Shown: one piece after another, positions 2,899-19,850 of the stretch | Numbering within the stretch: position 1 is the stretch's first letter | How the letters are laid out: every line of letters begins with the position of its first letter | The notes under the pieces: model-generated | The model's database searches: none | Told to the model about the DNA's origin: nothing | What the model saw: only the letters and a program-made list of their open reading frames with translations | Made by a program: the position numbers and the translations under genes | Assembly: GCA_900316745.1 (NCBI GenBank) | Contig: ONEB01000015.1 | Coordinates: forward strand, 1 to 45,335 | From: an uncultured Eubacteriales bacterium | GTDB taxonomy: Bacteria; Bacillota; Clostridia; Oscillospirales; Oscillospiraceae | Direction of reading: 5' to 3' | Length of the DNA: 45,335 bases

Positions 2899-5531
2899 CA
2901 GCGGCCCAGCTTCCCGATGTGCTTCTGCGCGGTGGCGGCCATCTTGCCGGGCACGCTCGCCGCGATGCGGCCGAGGGTGTGGAAGTACTCTCTGTTGTCG
3001 GCGTCGGTGATCTTCTCCATGGAGATGGCGCCGAACTTGCAGTGCGTGGTGCAGACGGCGCAGCCGACGCACATGAACTCATCCACCACGGCGACGCCGC
3101 AGCCGAGGCAGCGGCCCGCTTCGGCGGTCGCCTGCTCGGGCGTGAACACGCCGCGCAGATCCTTGAAGGCGACGTTCTTCGCGCGGGAGGTCTTGTCCCC
3201 GGCGGCCTGACGCGGCGTGGCGCAGACGCGCTCGGGCGCAATGAGCGCCTCCTTGCGGTTGAGCGCCTTATAGTCGCGGTGGTCGCGGCCGAGCGTGAGG
3301 TGCTGACCCTCGTGGACGCAGCGGTGGATGGAGATCGCCGCCCGATGACCCGCGGCAATGGCGTTGACGGCATAGCGCGGTCCGGTGACGACGTCGCCGC
3401 CCGCGAAGACGTCCGGGATCTCGGTCTGGCAGGTCTCCGCGTCGGCGGTGACGAGCCCCTTGGCGTTGAGCGCGATGCCCAGCGCGCCGAGATCGACGAC
3501 GCGGCTCAGTGCGCCGACGACGGCGGAGGCCTTCAGCTCTGCGGTCTCGCCGCCGTGGAGATAGGTGACGGCGGACTCGGAGATCGAGAGCGCCTCGGCC
3601 TCAAAGACGAACTTCACGCCCGCGGCTCTGGCGGCTGCCATCTCTTCCTTAACATTGCTGAACGTACCGACCTTGCGCGGTGCGAGCACGGTGACGCGCT
3701 TGACACCCAGCCCCGCGGCGGTGCGCGCGGCGTCCATCACCATGTGGTTGGCGTTCACGCCGCCCGCGATGATCACGACGTCGTCGCCCAGCTTGGGCTT
3801 TCTGCCGGCGTTGACCTTTTCGAGCATGTCGAGCGCGGCGCAGACGTTTTTGCCGTCGGCTCCGGGGATGGTGAGCAGCTCCGGCTTCGATGCGCCGACG
3901 CCGAGGAAGAACGCCTTGTAGCCCTCGGCGCGGAGCGCGTCGAGCGTGACGTCCCTGCCGACCTCCACGCCGGTCTGGAACTCCACGCCCATCCGGCGCA
4001 GGACGTCGATCTCCGCGTTCAGCACGTCCTTCTCCAGACGGAACGCGGGAATGGCGCGCGCGGGCATGCCGCCGAGCGTCTTTTCCTTTTCAAAGACCGT
4101 GACGGGATAGCCCTTCTCGCGCAGATAGTATGCGCAGCTCAGACCCGCGGGGCCGGCGCCGATGACGGCGATCTTCTCCTCGAACGGGATGCCTCTGGGG
4201 TTGAGCATGGGCGGGATCCAGCGCTCGTCTGCGCTCAGATCCTGCTCGGCGATGAACTTCTTCAGATCGTCGATGGCGACGGCGGAGTCCACGGCATTGC
4301 GCATGCAGGCGGCCTCGCAGGGCTTGTTGCAGATGCGGCCGCAGATTGCCGGGAACGGGTTGTCCTTCTTGATGAGCTGGAGAGCTTCCAGATAGCGCCC
4401 CTCCTTGGCGAGGGCGATGTAGCCCTGCACGGAGACGTTCGCGGGGCAGGCGGCCTTGCAGGGCGCGGTGCCGGTCTCGGTGACGTCGGTGCGCGTCTCG
4501 CGGAAGTCCGGGGTGTGGCGGTTTCCGAGCCAGAGCATCGTGTTGCGCGGTGTCTCGTCCGGGCGCTTTTTCACCGTGGACGCGTTGGCGCACAGGCGCG
4601 AGCCGAGCTTCACGGCGTTGACCTGGCAGTTTTCGACGCACTCGCCGCAGGCAACGCACTTGTCCATGTCCACGCGGGCGACGTAGTTCGACTTCACGGC
4701 GTCGGGCGCCTGGAAGTAGGTCGCGATGCGCAGGGCGAAGCAGCCGCAGCCGCAGCAGTTGCAGATGGCGGTCGCGTCCTCATAGCCGGGTGCGACGTTC
4801 AGCTCGTGGACGAGGCCGTTGCGCTCCGCGCGCTCGAGGATCTCGTACGCCTCCGCCTTGTCGATGCGGCGATGGGAGCCCATCTTGGAGTAGTTCACGG
4901 CGTTGTCGTTGAGGTAGATGCACATATCGTCCTCAAGATGTCCGCAGCCCTCGCCCATCAGGCGGCGCGAACGGCGGCAGGAGCACGGGCCGACGGAGAT
5001 CGCCCACGCGTTCTCGACGAGATTTCTGACCTCGTCATAGCTCGCCTTGCGGGTGTTGTTCTCTACGGCGCTCTGCACGGGGATGACGCGCATCATGTTC
5101 GAGCCGGCGTCCATGAACGGCGCAAGCAGGGAGACGCGGCGGCGGGTATACTCCTCGAAGCACTCGCCGAGGACCGGATACTTGTCGCACTGCTCGCGGT
5201 TTGCCATGATGCCCTCCATGATGCCGGGCACCCAGATGGGATAGAAGTAATAGGTCACGCCGTCGCGGACGCGGGTGCGCACGGCGCCGGTGAGACATAG
5301 CTTGTCCAGCTGCTCCTGCGTAAACTCGACGGTCTTCTTCGCGCGCTTTGCGATGTCCTCCACGCTGCGGCTGGCCTCGAGGCGCATGTGCATCATGATC
5401 TGGCACATCTCATCATCGATGATCGGCTCCAGGATGCGGTATTCGGGATCGTTGTAGGTGATGCCGGTGTAGGTCAGACTTTCCAGACTGATCTTGGTCG
5501 CCAGCTTCAGGATATTCGGTCTGTGTGCCAT
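2898..5531 (-). CDS. Multidomain Fe-S flavoprotein: cysteine-rich domain, GltD-like NAD(P)H oxidoreductase and ferredoxin domain
   Basis: This 877-residue cytoplasmic redox protein has several recognisable parts. Residues 1-110 look helical and resemble a winged-helix domain. Residues 178-205 carry a GPCSCRRS cysteine motif, and residues 257-264 a dense CNCCGCGC motif. A ferredoxin cluster (CVACGECVENC) sits at 292-302. Residues 355-440 resemble the Fe-S region of glutamate synthase small subunit (CKAACPAN, CGRICNKPCEAAC). A Rossmann FAD motif VIGAGPAGLSCAYYL lies at 456-470, an NAD(P) region near 587-610, and the FAD-closing motif FAGGDVVTG at 709-717. A last ferredoxin cluster is at 808-831. 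Electron transfer between NAD(P)H and ferredoxin-like partners is inferred; the real substrate is unknown. The ATG at 5531 has GGGGGAAC upstream. It is coupled to hypA. The N-terminal 310 residues parallel the Fe-S protein at 6440-7429, suggesting paralogy. Confidence 0.85.
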   Translation of the reverse strand: MAHRPNILKLATKISLESLTYTGITYNDPEYRILEPIIDDEMCQIMMHMRLEASRSVEDIAKRAKKTVEFTQEQLDKLCLTGAVRTRVRDGVTYYFYPIWVPGIMEGIMANREQCDKYPVLGECFEEYTRRRVSLLAPFMDAGSNMMRVIPVQSAVENNTRKASYDEVRNLVENAWAISVGPCSCRRSRRLMGEGCGHLEDDMCIYLNDNAVNYSKMGSHRRIDKAEAYEILERAERNGLVHELNVAPGYEDATAICNCCGCGCFALRIATYFQAPDAVKSNYVARVDMDKCVACGECVENCQVNAVKLGSRLCANASTVKKRPDETPRNTMLWLGNRHTPDFRETRTDVTETGTAPCKAACPANVSVQGYIALAKEGRYLEALQLIKKDNPFPAICGRICNKPCEAACMRNAVDSAVAIDDLKKFIAEQDLSADERWIPPMLNPRGIPFEEKIAVIGAGPAGLSCAYYLREKGYPVTVFEKEKTLGGMPARAIPAFRLEKDVLNAEIDVLRRMGVEFQTGVEVGRDVTLDALRAEGYKAFFLGVGASKPELLTIPGADGKNVCAALDMLEKVNAGRKPKLGDDVVIIAGGVNANHMVMDAARTAAGLGVKRVTVLAPRKVGTFSNVKEEMAAARAAGVKFVFEAEALSISESAVTYLHGGETAELKASAVVGALSRVVDLGALGIALNAKGLVTADAETCQTEIPDVFAGGDVVTGPRYAVNAIAAGHRAAISIHRCVHEGQHLTLGRDHRDYKALNRKEALIAPERVCATPRQAAGDKTSRAKNVAFKDLRGVFTPEQATAEAGRCLGCGVAVVDEFMCVGCAVCTTHCKFGAISMEKITDADNREYFHTLGRIAASVPGKMAATAQKHIGKLGR

Positions 5532-5568
5532 GCGATGTTCCCCCTTTTTGTATCTCAAACATTTCAAC

Positions 5569-5609
5569 AAAAAACTGCATGCTTATCAATAGTATAGCAT
5601 GCAGTTTTT
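5569..5609 (-). terminator. Intrinsic terminator between DUF92 gene and Fe-S flavoprotein gene
   Basis: A 14-bp stem (5570-5583 with 5596-5609, AAAACTGCATGCT and its complement) ends in T runs on both strands. On the minus strand it lies after the DUF92 stop at 5616 and before the flavoprotein start at 5531. No clear promoter fits in the remaining 38 bases, so the flavoprotein and hypA may depend on read-through. Confidence 0.8.
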
Positions 5610-5615
5610 TTCCTT

Positions 5616-6407
5616 TCAACACTTTGTTGCGGCAAACAGCGTGAGCGCTGCGGCAAGCGAAAACGCGTTGCTCATCAGATTCACCGCGTCGTTCGTGACC
5701 CATCCGATTCCGCTGACACGCAGCGTGGGTTCCCCGCAGTGCGTCTCGCGCTCCGTGACCGTGCCGCAGACGCGGCAGCGGAGCTTTACCTGCGCGCGCG
5801 AGCCGAGCACGCTGTCGAACACCGCGCCGAGAAAGCCCGCCGCGAGCACGACGGCGAAAAGCCGCGCGCTGTTATATCCCGCGGCGCTCACGGCCGCGAC
5901 CGCCGCCGCGCCAAAGAGCTCGGAGAGCGTGCCGAGCGGCGTCACGCCGCCGGAGAGCCCCGTGTGCACCGGCTTTCCGGTGCAGATGTCGCGCGGCTGC
6001 GCCTTTGCGAGCGGGCCTAATTTGGACGCGAGACTGTCCGCGAGCGACTCTGCCATCACAGCGCAGAAGCCCGCGCGGAAAGCGGCGTTCCCCGTCACAC
6101 CGAACAGCCCCATCGCGCACGCCGCGACGCCGACGTTGCACGCCACGCGCGCGGCATCCCGGCTGCCCGATTTGCGGCGGACGGCAAGGGGATCTGCGCG
6201 TCCGCCGGCAAACCGGTCTGCGGCGACGGTTCCAAGCAGCGTCACCGCCAGAACGGCAAAGGCCGTCCCGCCGCCGAGGGCGGTGATCGCGACGCACAGC
6301 GCCCACGCGAGCGCCGTGCCTCCGGGCGTCAGCGCGCGCCGCCAGAGCGCCGCTGCCGCCAGTACCGAGCTGAGCAGGAGGGCGGAAAGAAACTGCATAG
6401 GGGGCAT
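5616..6407 (-). CDS. DUF92/TMEM19-family integral membrane protein
   Basis: This protein of about 263 residues is strongly hydrophobic, with six or seven membrane segments. It carries the family's conserved features: an acidic stretch in the middle (AESLADSLASKLG) and later the glycine-rich GLSGGVTPLGT segment. The plant family member VTE6 is a phytyl-phosphate kinase, so a prenyl- or lipid-phosphate kinase role is possible but not shown here. Two starts are possible. The first ATG (6407) lies only two or three bases from GGAGG, while the fourth codon (ATG at 6398) has about eleven bases of spacing. It follows the Fe-S protein gene by 32 bases with no terminator between them, so the two are probably co-transcribed. 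Confidence 0.82.
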   Translation of the reverse strand: MPPMQFLSALLLSSVLAAAALWRRALTPGGTALAWALCVAITALGGGTAFAVLAVTLLGTVAADRFAGGRADPLAVRRKSGSRDAARVACNVGVAACAMGLFGVTGNAAFRAGFCAVMAESLADSLASKLGPLAKAQPRDICTGKPVHTGLSGGVTPLGTLSELFGAAAVAAVSAAGYNSARLFAVVLAAGFLGAVFDSVLGSRAQVKLRCRVCGTVTERETHCGEPTLRVSGIGWVTNDAVNLMSNAFSLAAALTLFAATKC

Positions 6408-6439
6408 GCCCTCCTTTCAAATAAGAATGGGTTGAGTTG

Positions 6440-7429
6440 TCAGCGCTCGGCGTATTGTTCGCCGCCGTGGATGTATCCCGGCTGCTTGGTGGAGATGATA
6501 TCCGTCTCGCGCGGGTCGGAGTCCATCAGGTGCATCATGCTGCCCTTGAAGGTCTTGTAGAACCACACGCCGGGCGTGAAGATGAGCTTGACATACAGCA
6601 CGCTCAGCCACACACGGAAGCGGCTGGGCTCCGTGACCTTCTGCACGCGGCTTTCGGTGTAGACCATCTTGCCGATGTGCTTGGGGCAGTTCGATTCGCA
6701 GATGCCGCAGCCGAGGCACTTGTCGAGGTCGACAACATGATGACCGTTTTCATCAAAGCTGAGCGCGCCGACAGGGCAGGCCTTGACGCACTTCTGGCAG
6801 TGGACGCACTGGGTCTCGTCGAACTCCGGCAGATACGGGCCGTTGTAGTTCACGAACGGAACGTGGAACTTGGTTTTCAGCGTCAGCGGCATGCAGCAGC
6901 AGGGGCAGCAGAAGCAGAGGTTGTCCTGATACGGCTGGACGCAGCTCTCGACGACGGCGATCAGATTGCGCTCGTGCGCCATCTCCGCCACGGCGAGACA
7001 TTCCTCGATGCTCACGGGGCGCTCGCCCGCCTTTTTCTTCAGCTGGCCGTAGAAGTTCAGGCCGAAGCAGGTGTTGATCGGGTTGTCGCAGTTTCCGCGC
7101 ACCGTGCGGCACACGCAGGGGCTCACGGCGATATCCGTGGTGTTGCGGATGATGTCCTTCGCCACCTCGATCGGGACGACGACGGAATTCGTGTGGATGT
7201 AGCGATAGTGCAGCTCCAGGCTCTTGCGGATCATCGGCCCGATGATCGGCTTGACCGCGAGCTGGCCCATCATGTACGAAAAGCGCACGACGTCCACGGT
7301 GTTTTTCAGGTGCTTTTTCAGGAAGTTTGCGCGGAAGCGCGCGTCGCTGTCATACAGCGTGATGCCGTCGACCTCCACCTTGCGGGAGGTGTAGCGGTTG
7401 CTGCTTTTCACTTCAGTCGCCATGGTCAT
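6440..7429 (-). CDS. Cysteine-rich double [4Fe-4S] ferredoxin-type protein
   Basis: This 329-residue protein probably carries several iron-sulfur clusters. Two ferredoxin motifs are plain: CVHCQKCVKACP at 208-219 and CLGCGICESNCP at 238-249. Upstream are a VSPCVCR motif with further cysteines (102-121) and an unusually dense cluster CFCCPCCC at 172-179. The same order (PCxCR, an acidic IEEC region, a dense CC motif, then ferredoxin clusters) occurs in the N-terminal third of the Fe-S flavoprotein at 2898-5531, so the two are probably paralogues working together. The C-terminal 60 residues include a hydrophobic stretch (SVLYVKLIFTPGVWF) that may touch the membrane. The start at 7429 follows AAAGGGGAAAC; the ATG at 7423 is an alternative. 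Its function is unknown beyond electron transfer. Confidence 0.85.
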   Translation of the reverse strand: MTMATEVKSSNRYTSRKVEVDGITLYDSDARFRANFLKKHLKNTVDVVRFSYMMGQLAVKPIIGPMIRKSLELHYRYIHTNSVVVPIEVAKDIIRNTTDIAVSPCVCRTVRGNCDNPINTCFGLNFYGQLKKKAGERPVSIEECLAVAEMAHERNLIAVVESCVQPYQDNLCFCCPCCCMPLTLKTKFHVPFVNYNGPYLPEFDETQCVHCQKCVKACPVGALSFDENGHHVVDLDKCLGCGICESNCPKHIGKMVYTESRVQKVTEPSRFRVWLSVLYVKLIFTPGVWFYKTFKGSMMHLMDSDPRETDIISTKQPGYIHGGEQYAER

Positions 7430-13068: not shown

Positions 13069-13488
13069 TTATCTGTGCTTTCTTGCAAAGCGGGCGGCGT
13101 CCTGTCGGGCGATCGCGCGATGGAGGGCGGCCTCGGCGCGGGCGACGTCGATATCCGCCGTCCGGTGCGCCAGACGCTCGCGGGCGCGGCGCTCGGCCGC
13201 CTCGGCGCGGGCAAGGTCGATGTCTTCGCCCTTTTCCGCGGCGCGCACCAGCAGCGTCACCTCGTTGTCCACCACGTTCAGTACGCCGATGCCGACGGCG
13301 ATGCCCGTCTCGCGCCCGTCGGAATAGGTGCAGCGCACGACGCCGTCCGTCACGGCGCCGAGCAGCGGCGCGTGGTTGGCAAGGATGCCGATGCTCGCCC
13401 CGTCCACGGGAACGTTCAGCTCCGCGACATGGTCATCGAACACCGTGCCGCCGGAGGTGAGGATCTGGATGTGGATCTTGTCCGCCAT
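13069..13488 (-). CDS. atpC: F1Fo ATP synthase subunit epsilon
   Basis: This 139-residue protein is the epsilon subunit of the F1 central stalk, which couples rotation and can inhibit ATP hydrolysis. The N-terminal beta-sandwich is recognisable by GTVFDDHVAELNVPVDGASIGILANHAPLLGA, broken here around its conserved NHAPLL motif at about 38-43. A helical C-terminal domain rich in Arg, Ala and Glu follows (about 88-139). The ATG lies three bases after the atpD stop; GAGGTG at the end of atpD is its SD. It is the last gene of the operon, before a strong terminator. Confidence 0.95.
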   Translation of the reverse strand: MADKIHIQILTSGGTVFDDHVAELNVPVDGASIGILANHAPLLGAVTDGVVRCTYSDGRETGIAVGIGVLNVVDNEVTLLVRAAEKGEDIDLARAEAAERRARERLAHRTADIDVARAEAALHRAIARQDAARFARKHR

Positions 13489-13491
13489 GGC

Positions 13492-14901
<1,410 letters not shown>

Positions 14902-15777
14902 TTACTTCTTCTTCTTGTTCTTGCTCAGTTTCAAAGCGTTCGCGCCGCCGACGATCTCGGAGATCTCGGTGGTGATCGCCGCCTGGCGCGCGCGGTTGAG
15001 ATGCAGCTGCAGGGTGCCGATGAGCTCGGCGGTGGAATCTGTCGCGGCGCTCATGGCGGTCATGCGCGAGGCATGCTCGCCGACCTTCGCCTCCAGCATG
15101 GTGGCGTAGACGGTGTTGTTCACATAGAGCTGCACCACGTTCTCGAGGATCGACGCGCGGTCGGGCTCGAAGAGATAGTCATGCGCCGTCTCGCCCTGCA
15201 CGCCTGCCGAGGCGGGCAGCAGGCACAGATCCGTCGGCTCCTGCGCGAGCATGCTGCGAAAGTGCTGATACACGAGGTGCACCTCGTCCGCCTCACCGGA
15301 GAGATACAGCCGCTTGAGCTCTTCCGCGAGCTCGAGCGCCTGATCCATCGTGGGCGTGTCGGATACCTCCTGACAGGTGCGCACAACAGGAAGCTCCATC
15401 TGCTTGATCAGATCGCGCCCCCAGCGCCCGAACACGATGACGGACGCCTCGCGCGTCTCCTGTTCCAGCGTGCGCTGCAAAAAGCGCAGCAGCGCGTGGT
15501 TATACATGCCGCACAGACCGCGGTTGCCCACGAACAGGACATAGCAGACCCTGCGGTTCTCCCTGTGCGGCGTGAGCAGCGGCGCGTCAAACGTCTCGCC
15601 GCCTGCCAGCACCGTATCGAGCAGCGACTGTGTTTTCTCGGCAAAGGCGCGCATGCCGCCCATACCGGACTGGGTCCGGCGCAGATTCGCCGCCGCGACC
15701 ATTTTCATGGTCTTGGTGATCTGCTGGGTATTCTGAACGCTCTTGATCCGGGTTCGGATCGCGCGCATGTTTGCCAC
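14902..15777 (-). CDS. atpG: F1Fo ATP synthase subunit gamma
   Basis: This 291-residue protein forms the rotating shaft of F1. The N-terminal helix RAIRTRIKSVQNTQQITKTM followed by KMVAAANLRR is diagnostic, and the C-terminal helix (LNRARQAAITTEISEIVGGA) is also conserved. The likely start is GTG at 15777, giving MANMRAI, with AAAAAGGAG ten bases upstream; an in-frame ATG three codons later is a fallback. The C-terminus ends in a run of lysines. It lies between the fused alpha gene and atpD, as in standard operons. Confidence 0.95.
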   Translation of the reverse strand: MANMRAIRTRIKSVQNTQQITKTMKMVAAANLRRTQSGMGGMRAFAEKTQSLLDTVLAGGETFDAPLLTPHRENRRVCYVLFVGNRGLCGMYNHALLRFLQRTLEQETREASVIVFGRWGRDLIKQMELPVVRTCQEVSDTPTMDQALELAEELKRLYLSGEADEVHLVYQHFRSMLAQEPTDLCLLPASAGVQGETAHDYLFEPDRASILENVVQLYVNNTVYATMLEAKVGEHASRMTAMSAATDSTAELIGTLQLHLNRARQAAITTEISEIVGGANALKLSKNKKKK

Positions 15778-15840: not shown

Positions 15841-18075
15841 TCAGAACGTTTTCTTGAATTCCTCGATCACGCCGCGCAGCTGCGTCAGCCGCTCGGGCTT
15901 GAGCTTCTTGCCGGAGCGGATCTCGTCGGCAAGCTCGGGGATCGCGCGGTGCACGGTCTCGACGAGCTCGGATTCGAAGCGCGCCATGTTCTCCATGGCG
16001 ATCTCGTCGGTGTAGCCCTCGGCGGCGGCGAAGATGCCGATGACCTGATCCGCCGCGTCCAGGGGCGAATACTGCGGCTGCTTCAAAAGCTCCGTCATGT
16101 GCGCGCCGCGGTCGAGCGTCTGGCGCGTCGCCTTGTCGAGGTCGGAGCCGAACTGCGCGAAGCTCGCCAGCTCCCGGTACTGCGCCAGATCCATGCGCAG
16201 GCGGCCGGCGACCTGCTTCATCGCGCCGAGCTGCGCAGCGCCGCCGACACGCGAGACCGAAAGACCCACGTTGATGGCAGGACGCACGCCGGAGTGGAAC
16301 AGATCCGTCTCAAGGAAGATCTGACCGTCCGTGATGGAGATGACGTTCGTCGGGATATAGGCGGAGATATCGCCCGCCTGCGTCTCGATGATGGGCAGCG
16401 CCGTCATGCTGCCGCCGCCCAGCTCGTCGGAAAGACGGGCCGCGCGCTCGAGAAGCCGGGAGTGCAGATAGAACACGTCGCCGGGGTACGCCTCGCGTCC
16501 GGGCGGGCGCTGCAGGAGCAGGGAAATCTCACGGTAGGCGACCGCCTGCTTGGAGAGGTCGTCATACACGATCAGGACGTCCTTGCCCGCATACATGAAC
16601 GCCTCGCCGATGGCGGCGCCGGCGTACGGCGCGATATAGAGCATCGGCGCGGGCTCCGACGCGTGCGCGCAGACGACGGTGGTATAGTCCATGGCGCCGT
16701 GGCTGCGCAGGGTCTCCACAACGCTCGCGACGGTGGATTCCTTCTGGCCGATGGCGACATAGATGCAGATCACGTCCTTGCCCTTCTGGTTCAGGATCGT
16801 GTCGATGGCGATGGCGGTTTTGCCGGTCTGGCGGTCGCCGATGATCAGCTCACGCTGACCGCGGCCGATCGGCACGAGCGCGTCGATGGCCTTGATGCCG
16901 GTCTGGAGCGGCACGGAGACGCTCTTGCGGTTGAGGACGCTCGGCGCGGGGCTTTCGATGGCGCGGTGCTCGACGGCGTTGATCGGGCCCTGTCCGTCCA
17001 CGGGACGTCCCAGCGCGTCCACGACGCGGCCGATCATGCAGTCGCCCACGGGCACCTCGATGATGCGGCCCGTACGGCGCACCGACATGCCCTCCTGCAC
17101 GTGCTCGTAGTTGCCGAGCAGGACCACGCCGACGTTTTCCGAGTCGAGGTCCATGACCATGCCGCGCAGGTCGCCCGGGAAGTCGAGCATTTCGCCCGCC
17201 ATGACGTCGGCAAGACCGGAGACGCGGCAGATGCCGTCCGACACGCTGATGACCTCGCCCGTCTGGAAGACGTCGATGTCGGTGTCTACGGCGGTGAGCT
17301 TCCGGCGGATGGATTCCGCGACCGTTTGCGTCTCGGCATCGGAGCGGAGCGAGTTGCGCTCCACGTCCTGCGTCAGGCGGTCGAGCTGGTGGGAGAGCGT
17401 GCCGTCATAGACCGTATCGCCGACGCGCATGCGCACGCCGCCGATGAGGTCCTTGTCCACCTCGTTGCGGCAGGAGATGAACGTCTCACACAGGATCTGC
17501 GTGAGCTTCTTCATCTCCTCGTCGGAGAGGGGCTCGGCGCTCGATATGGAAATATCCAGTTTCTTCAGTTCGTTCATATTCAAAATATCACTCGGCATTG
17601 CAGCCACAAGGTCCTTGATCTGTTGGATGAAGCTGTCTGTGAGTCCCTGACGGGCTTCGCTGTACTCATCGCCGCGGAGGATCTGCGCTGCCTCGTCCGC
17701 CACGAGGCGGATCGTGTGCGAGGCGACGCGGTTTTCCATGTCGGCGCGCAGCTGCGCCTCGGACTGGGCGGCGTTCAAGCGCACCTGCTCGGTCTCCTGC
17801 GCGCGCGCGTCGGCGGCGGCTTCGCTGTTTTCGGCTGCGCGGTCGTGCGCCTGCCGCAGCTGCGCCTCGTTTTCAGCGGCGGCTTTGGCGTTCGCGTCGG
17901 CGATATCCGCGCTCAGGCGCTCAGCTTCGCGCTCGGAGTCGGCGGCAGTCTGCAGGTCATCCGCGATCCGGTCTCGGCGCCCTGAGAACATGCGCCTGAT
18001 CATCTTGCGCGTGAGGAAAAACAGCACGCCGAACAGGATGAGGAAGTTGATGAGGCTAAACAAAAATTCTTTCAT
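15841..18075 (-). CDS. ATP synthase b'-delta-alpha fusion protein
   Basis: This single 744-residue frame joins three subunits. Residues 1-156 are a complete b-type stalk subunit: a membrane helix at 4-24 ([18 protein letters not shown]), a long Ala/Glu/Arg coiled coil, and a b-like end (VADEAAQIL to FIQQIKDL). Residues about 171-240 match the C-terminal domain of delta, ending [15 protein letters not shown] then [12 protein letters not shown]. The six-helix N-terminal domain of delta is not visible. Residues about 245-744 are a full-length alpha subunit with [10 protein letters not shown], Walker A GDRQTGKT at 413-420, and [16 protein letters not shown] at 18075 follows GGGAGG. There is no stop or frameshift within. 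No separate atpH or atpA is present. Mycobacterial b-delta fusions are a precedent for part of this, but fusion to alpha is unusual because F1 has three alpha and one delta. Confidence 0.93.
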
Positions 18076-18085
18076 AGGGCCTCCC

Positions 18086-18514
18086 TCATTCCTGCTCGCG
18101 GTGCAGCAGCGCACCGGCCAGCATATTCGCAAGCTCCGGCACTTCCTGCTTTAGCGTCTCGGCAGCGGCAGTCTCCTCGTCACGCAGGGCAGCGCGCATG
18201 TCCTTCATGGACTGCGCAGCCTCCTGACGCGCCTGTTGGAGCGCGGCATTGCGCGCCTGCTCATCGCGGGCATGTCCCTCGGCGAGGATGGCGGCAGCGG
18301 CGGCGTTGTTCGCCTTGCGCCCCTCCAAAATGGAGGCGTCGTTTTCCTCGCGCTTTGCGCGGGCGTCGGCGCCCGCCTTTTTGCCGCGGGCGATCTTCCC
18401 GTCGCGCTGCTCCATAAACGTGAGCAGCGGATCAAACAGGAGCTTTTTGAGCACAAACAGCAGCACGACAAAGCAGATCACAGTCCAGATCAGTTCTGAA
18501 GCATAGATCGTCAA
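18086..18514 (-). CDS. atpF: F1Fo ATP synthase subunit b
   Basis: This 142-residue protein is the free b subunit of the peripheral stalk. A membrane helix occupies about 8-25 ([20 protein letters not shown]), split by family-typical charged residues, and is followed by an Arg/Glu/Ala coiled coil. The C-terminus [17 protein letters not shown] matches b subunits. The start appears to be TTG at 18514, with AGGAAGG eight bases upstream; no in-frame ATG or GTG fits the expected N-terminus. A TTG start could lower its output. The stop is ten bases before the fusion gene, whose N-terminus supplies a second, b'-like stalk helix. Confidence 0.9.
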
Positions 18515-18835: not shown

Positions 18836-19495
18836 TTATTCCTCTTCGCCGATGGCCTCGGTGATATAAATGGAGATCAGCATCGTGAAAACCATGGCCT
18901 GAATGAGGCAGAAGAGCAGACTCAGAACGTGCATGACGATCGGCAGGCCGATGCCCGCGAGGTGACCGAGCTGCTCGGCGGCCAGCTCCTCGCCGTAGAG
19001 GTTGCCGTAGAGTCGCAGCGCGAGGGACACGGGATGCACGAACTGCTCGATGAGGTTCAGCGGCAGCATCAAAAAACACAGGAACATCGGCTGCAGAAAG
19101 CTTTTTCCATAGCCGCCGAGGCCCTGATGGCGCACCCCCTCAACCTGCGTGACGAGAAAGCCGATGATCGCGAGTCCCGCCGTGACGGAAAGGCTCGTCG
19201 TCGGCACGGCAAAGACGCTGCCGGCGCCGGGCAGGAGGCTGGAGTAGTTCGACACGACGATGAAGATGAAAAATGTCGCCATCAAGGGGAAATAGCGCTT
19301 GACATTGCTCTTGCCGAGGATGCCCTCGAAGAAGCCGTACAGCGCGCGCACCGCCATTTCGGCGATGTTTTGCAGCACGCCGGGCTTTTCTTTTAAATTG
19401 CGCGTGGCGAGGAAACTCAGCAGCGCGATCACCGCCACGATCACCCACATCGTAATGACGGGCTTTGTGATCCACGGGCCCATCTCAAATTTCAT
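18836..19495 (-). CDS. atpB: F1Fo ATP synthase subunit a
   Basis: This 219-residue membrane protein forms the ion half-channels against the c ring. The essential Arg161 sits in SLALRLYGNLYGEEL, and NYSSLLPG and PLNLIEQFVHP are conserved family segments. The ATG at 19495 has GGAGGTG nine bases upstream, which favours it over a GTG four codons earlier. The start overlaps the end of atpI by 11 bases, so the genes are translationally linked. Confidence 0.95.
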   Translation of the reverse strand: MKFEMGPWITKPVITMWVIVAVIALLSFLATRNLKEKPGVLQNIAEMAVRALYGFFEGILGKSNVKRYFPLMATFFIFIVVSNYSSLLPGAGSVFAVPTTSLSVTAGLAIIGFLVTQVEGVRHQGLGGYGKSFLQPMFLCFLMLPLNLIEQFVHPVSLALRLYGNLYGEELAAEQLGHLAGIGLPIVMHVLSLLFCLIQAMVFTMLISIYITEAIGEEE

Positions 19496-19850
19496 TGCTG
19501 GAAGCACCTCCGCTCTCGTTTTCGCCGTCCGCGCGCTTTTCGCTTTCGGCCAAGGCTGACTCCGACCACTGCCGGCTCAGCCGAACGATGAAATAAATGT
19601 TGCCGACGGACAGGCCGACCGCCGCGCCCAGCAGCGTGCCGACAAATCCCAGCGGCGAGACCTTTCGCAGGAGGAAAATGACGAGCAGCACGGCGAAGTT
19701 GATGAGCATGCGGATCATGTTTGTCGCCATGATGGCGGTCGCGGCGTCCTTGCGCATGGCGCGCTTGGTGATGCGCATGTTGCCATAGCCCACCGCAACA
19801 CCCACCGCCGCGCCGACCAGCGCGCCGATGAGCTCCGTTCCGAGCGCCAT
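19485..19850 (-). CDS. atpI: AtpI-like accessory protein of ATP synthase
   Basis: This 121-residue protein has four hydrophobic segments and a charged C-terminal tail. Position as the first gene of the atp operon, size and the glycine-rich segments (GALVGAAVGVAVGYGN and LLGAAVGLSVGNIYF) fit AtpI, an assembly factor that helps build the c ring. The family is weakly conserved, so the call rests largely on context. GGGAGGTGACGG precedes the ATG. It overlaps atpB by 11 bases. Confidence 0.78.
   Translation of the reverse strand: MALGTELIGALVGAAVGVAVGYGNMRITKRAMRKDAATAIMATNMIRMLINFAVLLVIFLLRKVSPLGFVGTLLGAAVGLSVGNIYFIVRLSRQWSESALAESEKRADGENESGGASSNEI

Follow-up and report, generated by a model that had tools for sequence, protein, structure and literature searches.

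V-ATPases carry three EG stalks, and the F-type enzymes of mycobacteria and Gordonia have a complete delta subunit and one b-delta chain per enzyme. A fused b-delta protein in Gordonia and Mycobacterium is described in PMC5709465, excerpts of which also give the N-ATPase operon order (beta-epsilon-...-a-c-b-alpha-gamma) and report Clostridia transcription units without delta; some of these units could, at a guess, hold unrecognised fusions. One of the closest described systems is an engineered one: according to excerpts of Ueno et al. (Nat Commun 2025; PMC12229609), residues 2-104 of delta were removed from Bacillus PS3 FoF1 and the rest was fused to alpha, the reason for fusing being that the truncated delta might not stay on F1. 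As many as three peripheral stalks formed on the resulting enzyme, every one with an a subunit, and its H+/ATP ratio was 5.8 versus 3.0; three stalks were rare (1.26 stalks per molecule by cryo-EM and about 2 by SDS-PAGE), and the stalks that were seen always bore an a subunit. The same excerpts argue that the delta N-terminal domain, lying on the three-fold axis, restricts stalks to one, state that every ATP synthase so far has a single a subunit, and name a stably bound multi-stalk FoF1 as what is needed to test H+ stoichiometry against a-subunit number. They also describe, from Acidaminococcus fermentans, a natural delta-CTD-alpha chain (the delta C-terminal domain, CTD, fused to alpha) that has no N-terminal domain, mention two UniProt entries with comparable features, and voice the suspicion that the engineered solution also exists in nature. 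No b'-delta-alpha chain came up in the open-access literature searched, the excerpts of these two papers included.

The window analysed here, a stretch of 45,335 nucleotides from an uncultured Eubacteriales bacterium of the gut, holds an ATP synthase operon in which one minus-strand frame (18075-15841) translates into 744 residues and a stop without internal stops (Table 1). The chain consists of a b' stalk with its membrane helix, the C-terminal domain of delta and a complete alpha subunit. The INFxIL...RK-like start of the b' helix is also seen in the relatives inspected. OSCP was matched at residues 168-236 and aligned to profile positions 98-170 of 172 only, so the N-terminal domain of delta is absent; PDB matches to this part are the delta chain 6n2y_I and the delta-alpha chain 9jc1_I. 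The alpha part comprises barrel (272-336), nucleotide-binding (393-608) and C domains (615-740), scores 798.9 bits against TIGR00962 (cut-off 484.45) and thus belongs to the atpA family. The first-pass annotation of this DNA had described a 744-residue triple fusion with an intact Walker A at 413-420 and a free b gene just upstream; translation and Pfam domains bear out the fusion, GDRQTGKT starts at residue 413, and the b gene was recovered as a PF00430 match at 18086-18514. Around the fusion, the genes for a small membrane protein, a, c and b lie upstream and those for gamma, beta and epsilon downstream, as in an FoF1 operon. Counterparts of the small membrane protein occupy the same place in many related loci. 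P-loops are present, together with the motifs generally assigned to the beta catalytic glutamate, the alpha arginine finger and the a-subunit arginine.

Table 1. Coordinates of the ATP synthase genes in the window and of the parts of the fused chain
Feature	Position	Strand	Evidence
Fused gene b'-delta(CTD)-alpha, 744 aa	15841..18075	(-)	Translation and Pfam; architecture repeated in relatives
b' membrane helix, residues 1-30	17986..18075	(-)	Sequence by eye; dN/dS 0.08 within genus
b' stalk, residues 31-158, sequence variable	17602..17985	(-)	Pfam ATP-synt_B, residues 4-118 of the chain; dN/dS 0.39
delta C-terminal domain, residues 162-240	17356..17592	(-)	Pfam OSCP; dN/dS 0.11; PDB 6n2y_I, 9jc1_I
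Junction and former alpha N-terminal segment, residues 241-266	17278..17355	(-)	Free sequence, length nearly fixed
Complete alpha, residues 267-744 and stop	15841..17277	(-)	TIGR00962; P-loop and Arg-finger motifs present
Free subunit b, 142 aa, TTG start	18086..18514	(-)	Pfam PF00430, 2.9e-14
Subunit c, 75 aa	18550..18777	(-)	Pfam PF00137
Subunit a, 223 aa, arginine motif LALRLYGN	18836..19507	(-)	Pfam PF00119
Small membrane protein, perhaps AtpI-like	19485..19850	(-)	PF03899 weak, 0.0016, below cut-off
Subunit gamma	14902..15777	(-)	Pfam PF00231, 1.8e-88
Subunit beta, P-loop and catalytic-Glu motifs intact	13492..14874	(-)	TIGR01039, 810 bits
Subunit epsilon	13069..13488	(-)	Pfam PF02823/PF00401

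The host genome (2.44 Mb, 39 contigs, 92.5% complete, so that a missing copy stays possible) was searched with profiles. OSCP gave one match at E <= 10, the C-terminal domain inside the fused chain; PF00430 gave two, free b and fused b'; PF00006 gave four, namely the fused alpha, its beta, and the A and B subunits of a V/A-type ATPase; and one a-subunit gene was counted. A second F-type alpha or a second delta was not found in this 92.5% complete genome, in agreement with the earlier statement that separate atpH and atpA genes are lacking, and only the V/A-type A and B accompany the F-type alpha and beta. Because no separate, complete delta was found in its genome, the enzyme was filed as an F-type variant. 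The V/A-type ATPase forms another locus (G000:C31, L237; subunits I, A, B and D scored), and a V/A-type identity for the window locus was rejected, the A and B subunits belonging to C31. An RnfCDGEAB cluster was located at G000:C21 (L247).

Compared with the engineered PS3 enzyme, the chain likewise has a delta without its N-terminal domain joined to the alpha N-terminus, but the PS3 b is a separate homodimer, whereas here b' belongs to the fused chain and another b is free; instead of separate b dimers binding the delta domain, there is a covalent b' and only one free b gene. The A. fermentans chain is also a delta fused to alpha with the N-terminal domain missing, although no b' is mentioned for it in the excerpts of PMC12229609. 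With the mycobacterial and Gordonia fusion (7jg5_d) the window chain shares a b' joined to delta and a separate b; there delta is complete and alpha is separate, unlike here, where delta is truncated and alpha is in the same chain. N-ATPases also lack a separate delta gene, but identity with or origin from an N-ATPase was rejected, the alpha part scoring 655.5 against the TIGR03324 cut-off of 750.5 and fitting TIGR00962 instead, and operon order does not match either, as the window operon closes with gamma-beta-epsilon. With V-ATPases the enzyme would have a three-stalk design in common, although the stalk subunits of the two are unrelated. The triple fusion goes one step beyond the engineered and natural delta-alpha chains, in that one b' is tied to every alpha.

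The first-pass annotation had proposed a proteome search for the architecture. Within the genus, the triple-fusion frame was present in six of nine other genomes (751-757 residues), was cut by a contig end in two and had no match in one. Fusions in the order were then counted among the rows listed, as matches starting at position <=12 with an open frame of >=575, and the counts are lower bounds. At least 67 rows in at least 66 of 394 genomes have a frame running from the delta CTD to alpha without a stop (an F-type alpha was found in 206 of the 394 at E 1e-100), and delta-alpha fusion in general is common in the order. The search discriminates, since neighbours with separate genes show a stop between the parts or a match that begins in alpha. 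The triple fusion was found in at least 17 of the 394 genomes (frames of 736-784, match from position 2, all 17 read), including members of other families. The other 50 rows, sorted partly by frame length only, comprise delta-CTD-alpha chains (579-641; a longer open frame in G082), six full delta-alpha chains (open frames of 670-706) and one tandem chain. In the tandem case (L025; L214:3541-5568, G024), two delta CTDs stand ahead of alpha in 675 residues (open frame 681). The full delta-alpha loci (L184-L188 and L030, corresponding to G363, G178, G396, G330, G234 and G016) keep the delta N-terminal domain; since three complete deltas on one F1 might collide at the axis, processing or an internal start may be more plausible for these chains.

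Of the 391 genomes sampled from the class, 30 gave a match reaching 1e-262, with 24 rows fused without a stop, five with stops and one starting in alpha; judged by frame length, none of these 30 rows is a triple fusion besides the window's own (G000). None besides the window's own was seen among the rows listed for the phylum sample (348 genomes) either, where G962, G861, G818 and G877 look like delta-CTD-alpha. In the phylum sample, the open frame of one alpha (G1012:C12:17889-19370; 729 residues) extends far upstream with no match to b' or delta. Among named genomes, the best 80 of 573 loci comprise 51 triple fusions, one delta-CTD-alpha (L100) and 28 unfused gammaproteobacterial loci. All 51 are MAGs or uncultured by title: 48 are titled Clostridia, Clostridiales, Eubacteriales, Oscillospiraceae, Ruminococcaceae and the like, many from ruminants, and three (L133, L152 and L167, one named Flexilinea) are Chloroflexota MAGs, the cases found outside the order. 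Candidate fusions in Pseudomonas, Microbulbifer and Halorhodospira were rejected: delta and alpha are separate in L165 and L128 when read through, and all 28 loci were scored as unfused by script. The P-loop of six triple fusions (L112, L120, L121, L125, L137 and L141) deviates from GDRQTGKS/T (for example GDRQSGKS, GDRSTGKS or GDRQCGKT). The architecture therefore recurs, and its delta-CTD-alpha part is neither unique nor unpublished; new, as far as can be told, are the triple fusion itself, its single clade, its presence in Chloroflexota, its origin separate from the delta-CTD-alpha clade, and the junction statistics given below.

For descent, a tree of 125 alphas was built by a quick method with midpoint rooting (SH-aLRT 95-98 for the branches that matter here). 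Chains identical over their last 350 residues entered only once, and a fragment (L015), three cut loci (L096, L124 and L140) and the six triple fusions with a P-loop off the search pattern, whose fused frame is whole, were left out. All 58 placed triple-fusion alphas fall in one clade (support 95), together with L100. A second clade (98) holds 30 of the 31 delta-CTD-alpha chains, six full delta-alpha chains, the tandem chain and five unfused alphas, so that most delta-CTD-alpha chains lie apart from the triple fusions in this tree, which was drawn without A. fermentans itself. If the tree is right, alpha and delta would have been joined at least twice, given that the fusions fall in two clades; a single origin for all delta-alpha fusions is unsupported. 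The Chloroflexota triple fusions are nested inside the Clostridia clade, which suggests that lateral transfer into these MAGs is likely. In L100, a b' gene closing with two degenerate delta-CTD-like repeats, as judged by eye (4483-5442), adjoins a delta-CTD-alpha gene (5448-7193), giving three delta-CTD-like domains in the operon; L100 is apparently a secondary split of the triple fusion.

Whether the chain is used whole was approached through gene copies, selection and the junction. In 14 of the 17 triple-fusion genomes of the order, alpha (E <= 1e-100) and OSCP (E <= 0.01) were each matched once, the position of the OSCP match being known for only some of them; with completeness at 62-87% in four of the 14, a copy may have been missed there. 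The other three (G413, G407 and G125) carry a second F-ATPase. Each of the 50 triple-fusion loci scored (48 distinct) has a single free b and lacks a delta ORF. Among six sequences of the genus (14-15 pairs, median dS 0.56-0.99), dN/dS was 0.08 for the membrane helix, 0.11 for the delta domain, 0.12 for alpha, 0.39 for the fast-evolving b' stalk and 0.41 for the junction; the delta domain and the membrane helix are under purifying selection. The length from membrane helix to delta domain is 129-166 residues (median 141), comparable to that of an ordinary b such as the 156-residue one of P. fluorescens. The junction has a mean identity of 16% and a length of 28-34 residues (residue 236 to 269 in the window chain). 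Of 57 natural chains, 37 have a spacing of 54 between GDxxYD and GxV and 13 have one of 50 (range 49-55); these two values differ by about one helical turn, and 9jc1 has 53. A profile of 13 natural junctions found 9jc1_I as its best PDB match, in a single alignment spanning both domains (111.9 bits, E 2.9e-31), and the next matches covered alpha only (63 bits). 9jc1_I is a 580-residue chain named 'ATP synthase delta subunit, ATP synthase subunit alpha' and, by this name and length, is presumably the enzyme of Ueno et al. As the alignment runs into the alpha N-terminal segment of 9jc1 with one single-residue gap, this segment is kept in the fusions.

These observations bear on four accounts other than a chain that is made and used whole. 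An assembly error or a decayed gene might be suspected in a genome of 39 contigs that is 92.5% complete, but the intact frame recurs in many separate assemblies and holds the sole F-type alpha found in its genome, with dN/dS well below 1 and catalytic motifs intact, and we consider this account hardly credible. Internal translation initiation would yield free alpha, leaving b'-delta on a minority of alphas. An SD-like signal before an in-frame start, scored at a chosen threshold within 60 junction codons, was present in 31% of 58 triple-fusion genes and in 32% of 1102 control windows from inside the same alphas, as against 86% of 28 unfused alphas; no start-codon position recurs in more than 13 of the 58, and three have no start codon in the 60 codons. 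An internal start was accordingly rejected for the triple fusions, matching the earlier remark that no SD-preceded start was visible. The other fusions (delta-CTD-, tandem- and full-delta-alpha) are less clear, with a signal in 45% of 38 junctions and 31% of 728 controls, and this weak excess is what speaks for an account that we rate as very unlikely.

Cleavage of the junction by a protease after synthesis would give one b'-delta and free alpha, and hence a normal enzyme of the single-stalk kind, which wants one b'-delta per three alphas; the poorly conserved junction may also be exposed. Its near-fixed length and spacing (54 or 50 in 50 of 57 chains) argue otherwise, although part of that stretch is the alpha N-terminal segment: a cut chain would not need a near-fixed junction, an argument rather than a proof that favours the intact chain. 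A delta truncated at its N-terminus might moreover fall off F1 once loose, a concern that the engineers voice in the excerpts of PMC12229609, and we consider cleavage improbable. Alternatively, the chain may stay whole and provide three arms, of which only one b/b' pair is assembled with one a subunit, two b' remaining as idle membrane tethers and coupling staying ordinary. The single genes for a and for free b, the ordinary operon order and the loss of stalks from the engineered enzyme (PMC12229609, in excerpt) are compatible with this; yet a single gene can supply several copies, the engineered stalks seen always bore an a subunit (same excerpts), and purifying selection acts on the membrane helix and the delta domain, so that idle tethers seem to us an unlikely outcome.

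We think it fairly probable that the locus encodes a naturally occurring F-ATPase with several hard-wired stalks, suited to low ion-motive force, in which we infer an uncut chain, three stalks, more than one a subunit and a benefit at low force. The gene would make the intact 744-residue chain, and three such chains would enter each F1 head. With the delta N-terminal domain lost from the three-fold axis, where it normally limits stalks to one, the uncut chains would present three b' arms per F1, each in need of one free b; up to three b/b' stalks could form, and each may be able to hold an a subunit. The benefit would be ATP synthesis at low ion-motive force, as the engineered enzyme and the Rnf cluster in the genome suggest. 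In a more far-reaching version, which we regard as possible but somewhat doubtful, three covalent b/b' stalks would each have their own a subunit, the ions per ATP would equal the c-subunit number (three times the usual), and the enzyme would act as a 'low gear' making ATP at some tens of millivolts, fed by Rnf, with pumping at the expense of ATP left to the V/A-type enzyme.

The first-pass annotation had held that the cell must avoid three arms, which is unsupported. Of its four ways out, an internal start and a second alpha gene are disfavoured by the data, and a different stator has as a precedent the engineered delta-alpha enzyme with its up to three stalks (excerpts of PMC12229609). Its suggestion that covalent linkage stands in for the delta N-terminal domain gains support. 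Several findings count against a multi-stalk enzyme: b' lies apart from alpha in L100, so the b' link is not indispensable; six full delta-alpha chains retain the N-terminal domain, which shows that a fusion can occur without losing it; the sequence of the b' stalk changes quickly; three of 17 genomes have a second F-ATPase; the records are MAGs or uncultured; and three stalks are rare even when engineered. With b' unable to leave alpha, the family looks, on paper, like a stably stalked multi-stalk FoF1. If the multi-stalk reading is true, the known range of ion-to-ATP ratios would be wider, there would be a hint as to the way in which fermenting gut bacteria gain ATP when the ion-motive force is low, and structural biologists would have a natural multi-stalk enzyme to purify.

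Two features of the membrane subunits were recorded. The a subunits of triple-fusion operons seem short, with a median of 226 residues versus 270 and 248 in the other two classes, where start sites are uncurated, classes were assigned by length only and the class of 270 includes the cut locus L124. The c subunits in seven delta-CTD-alpha operons (L189-L194 and L214) carry an N-terminal extension of about 40 residues that resembles a signal peptide; those of the triple-fusion operons inspected (the window, L176 and L152) are without it.
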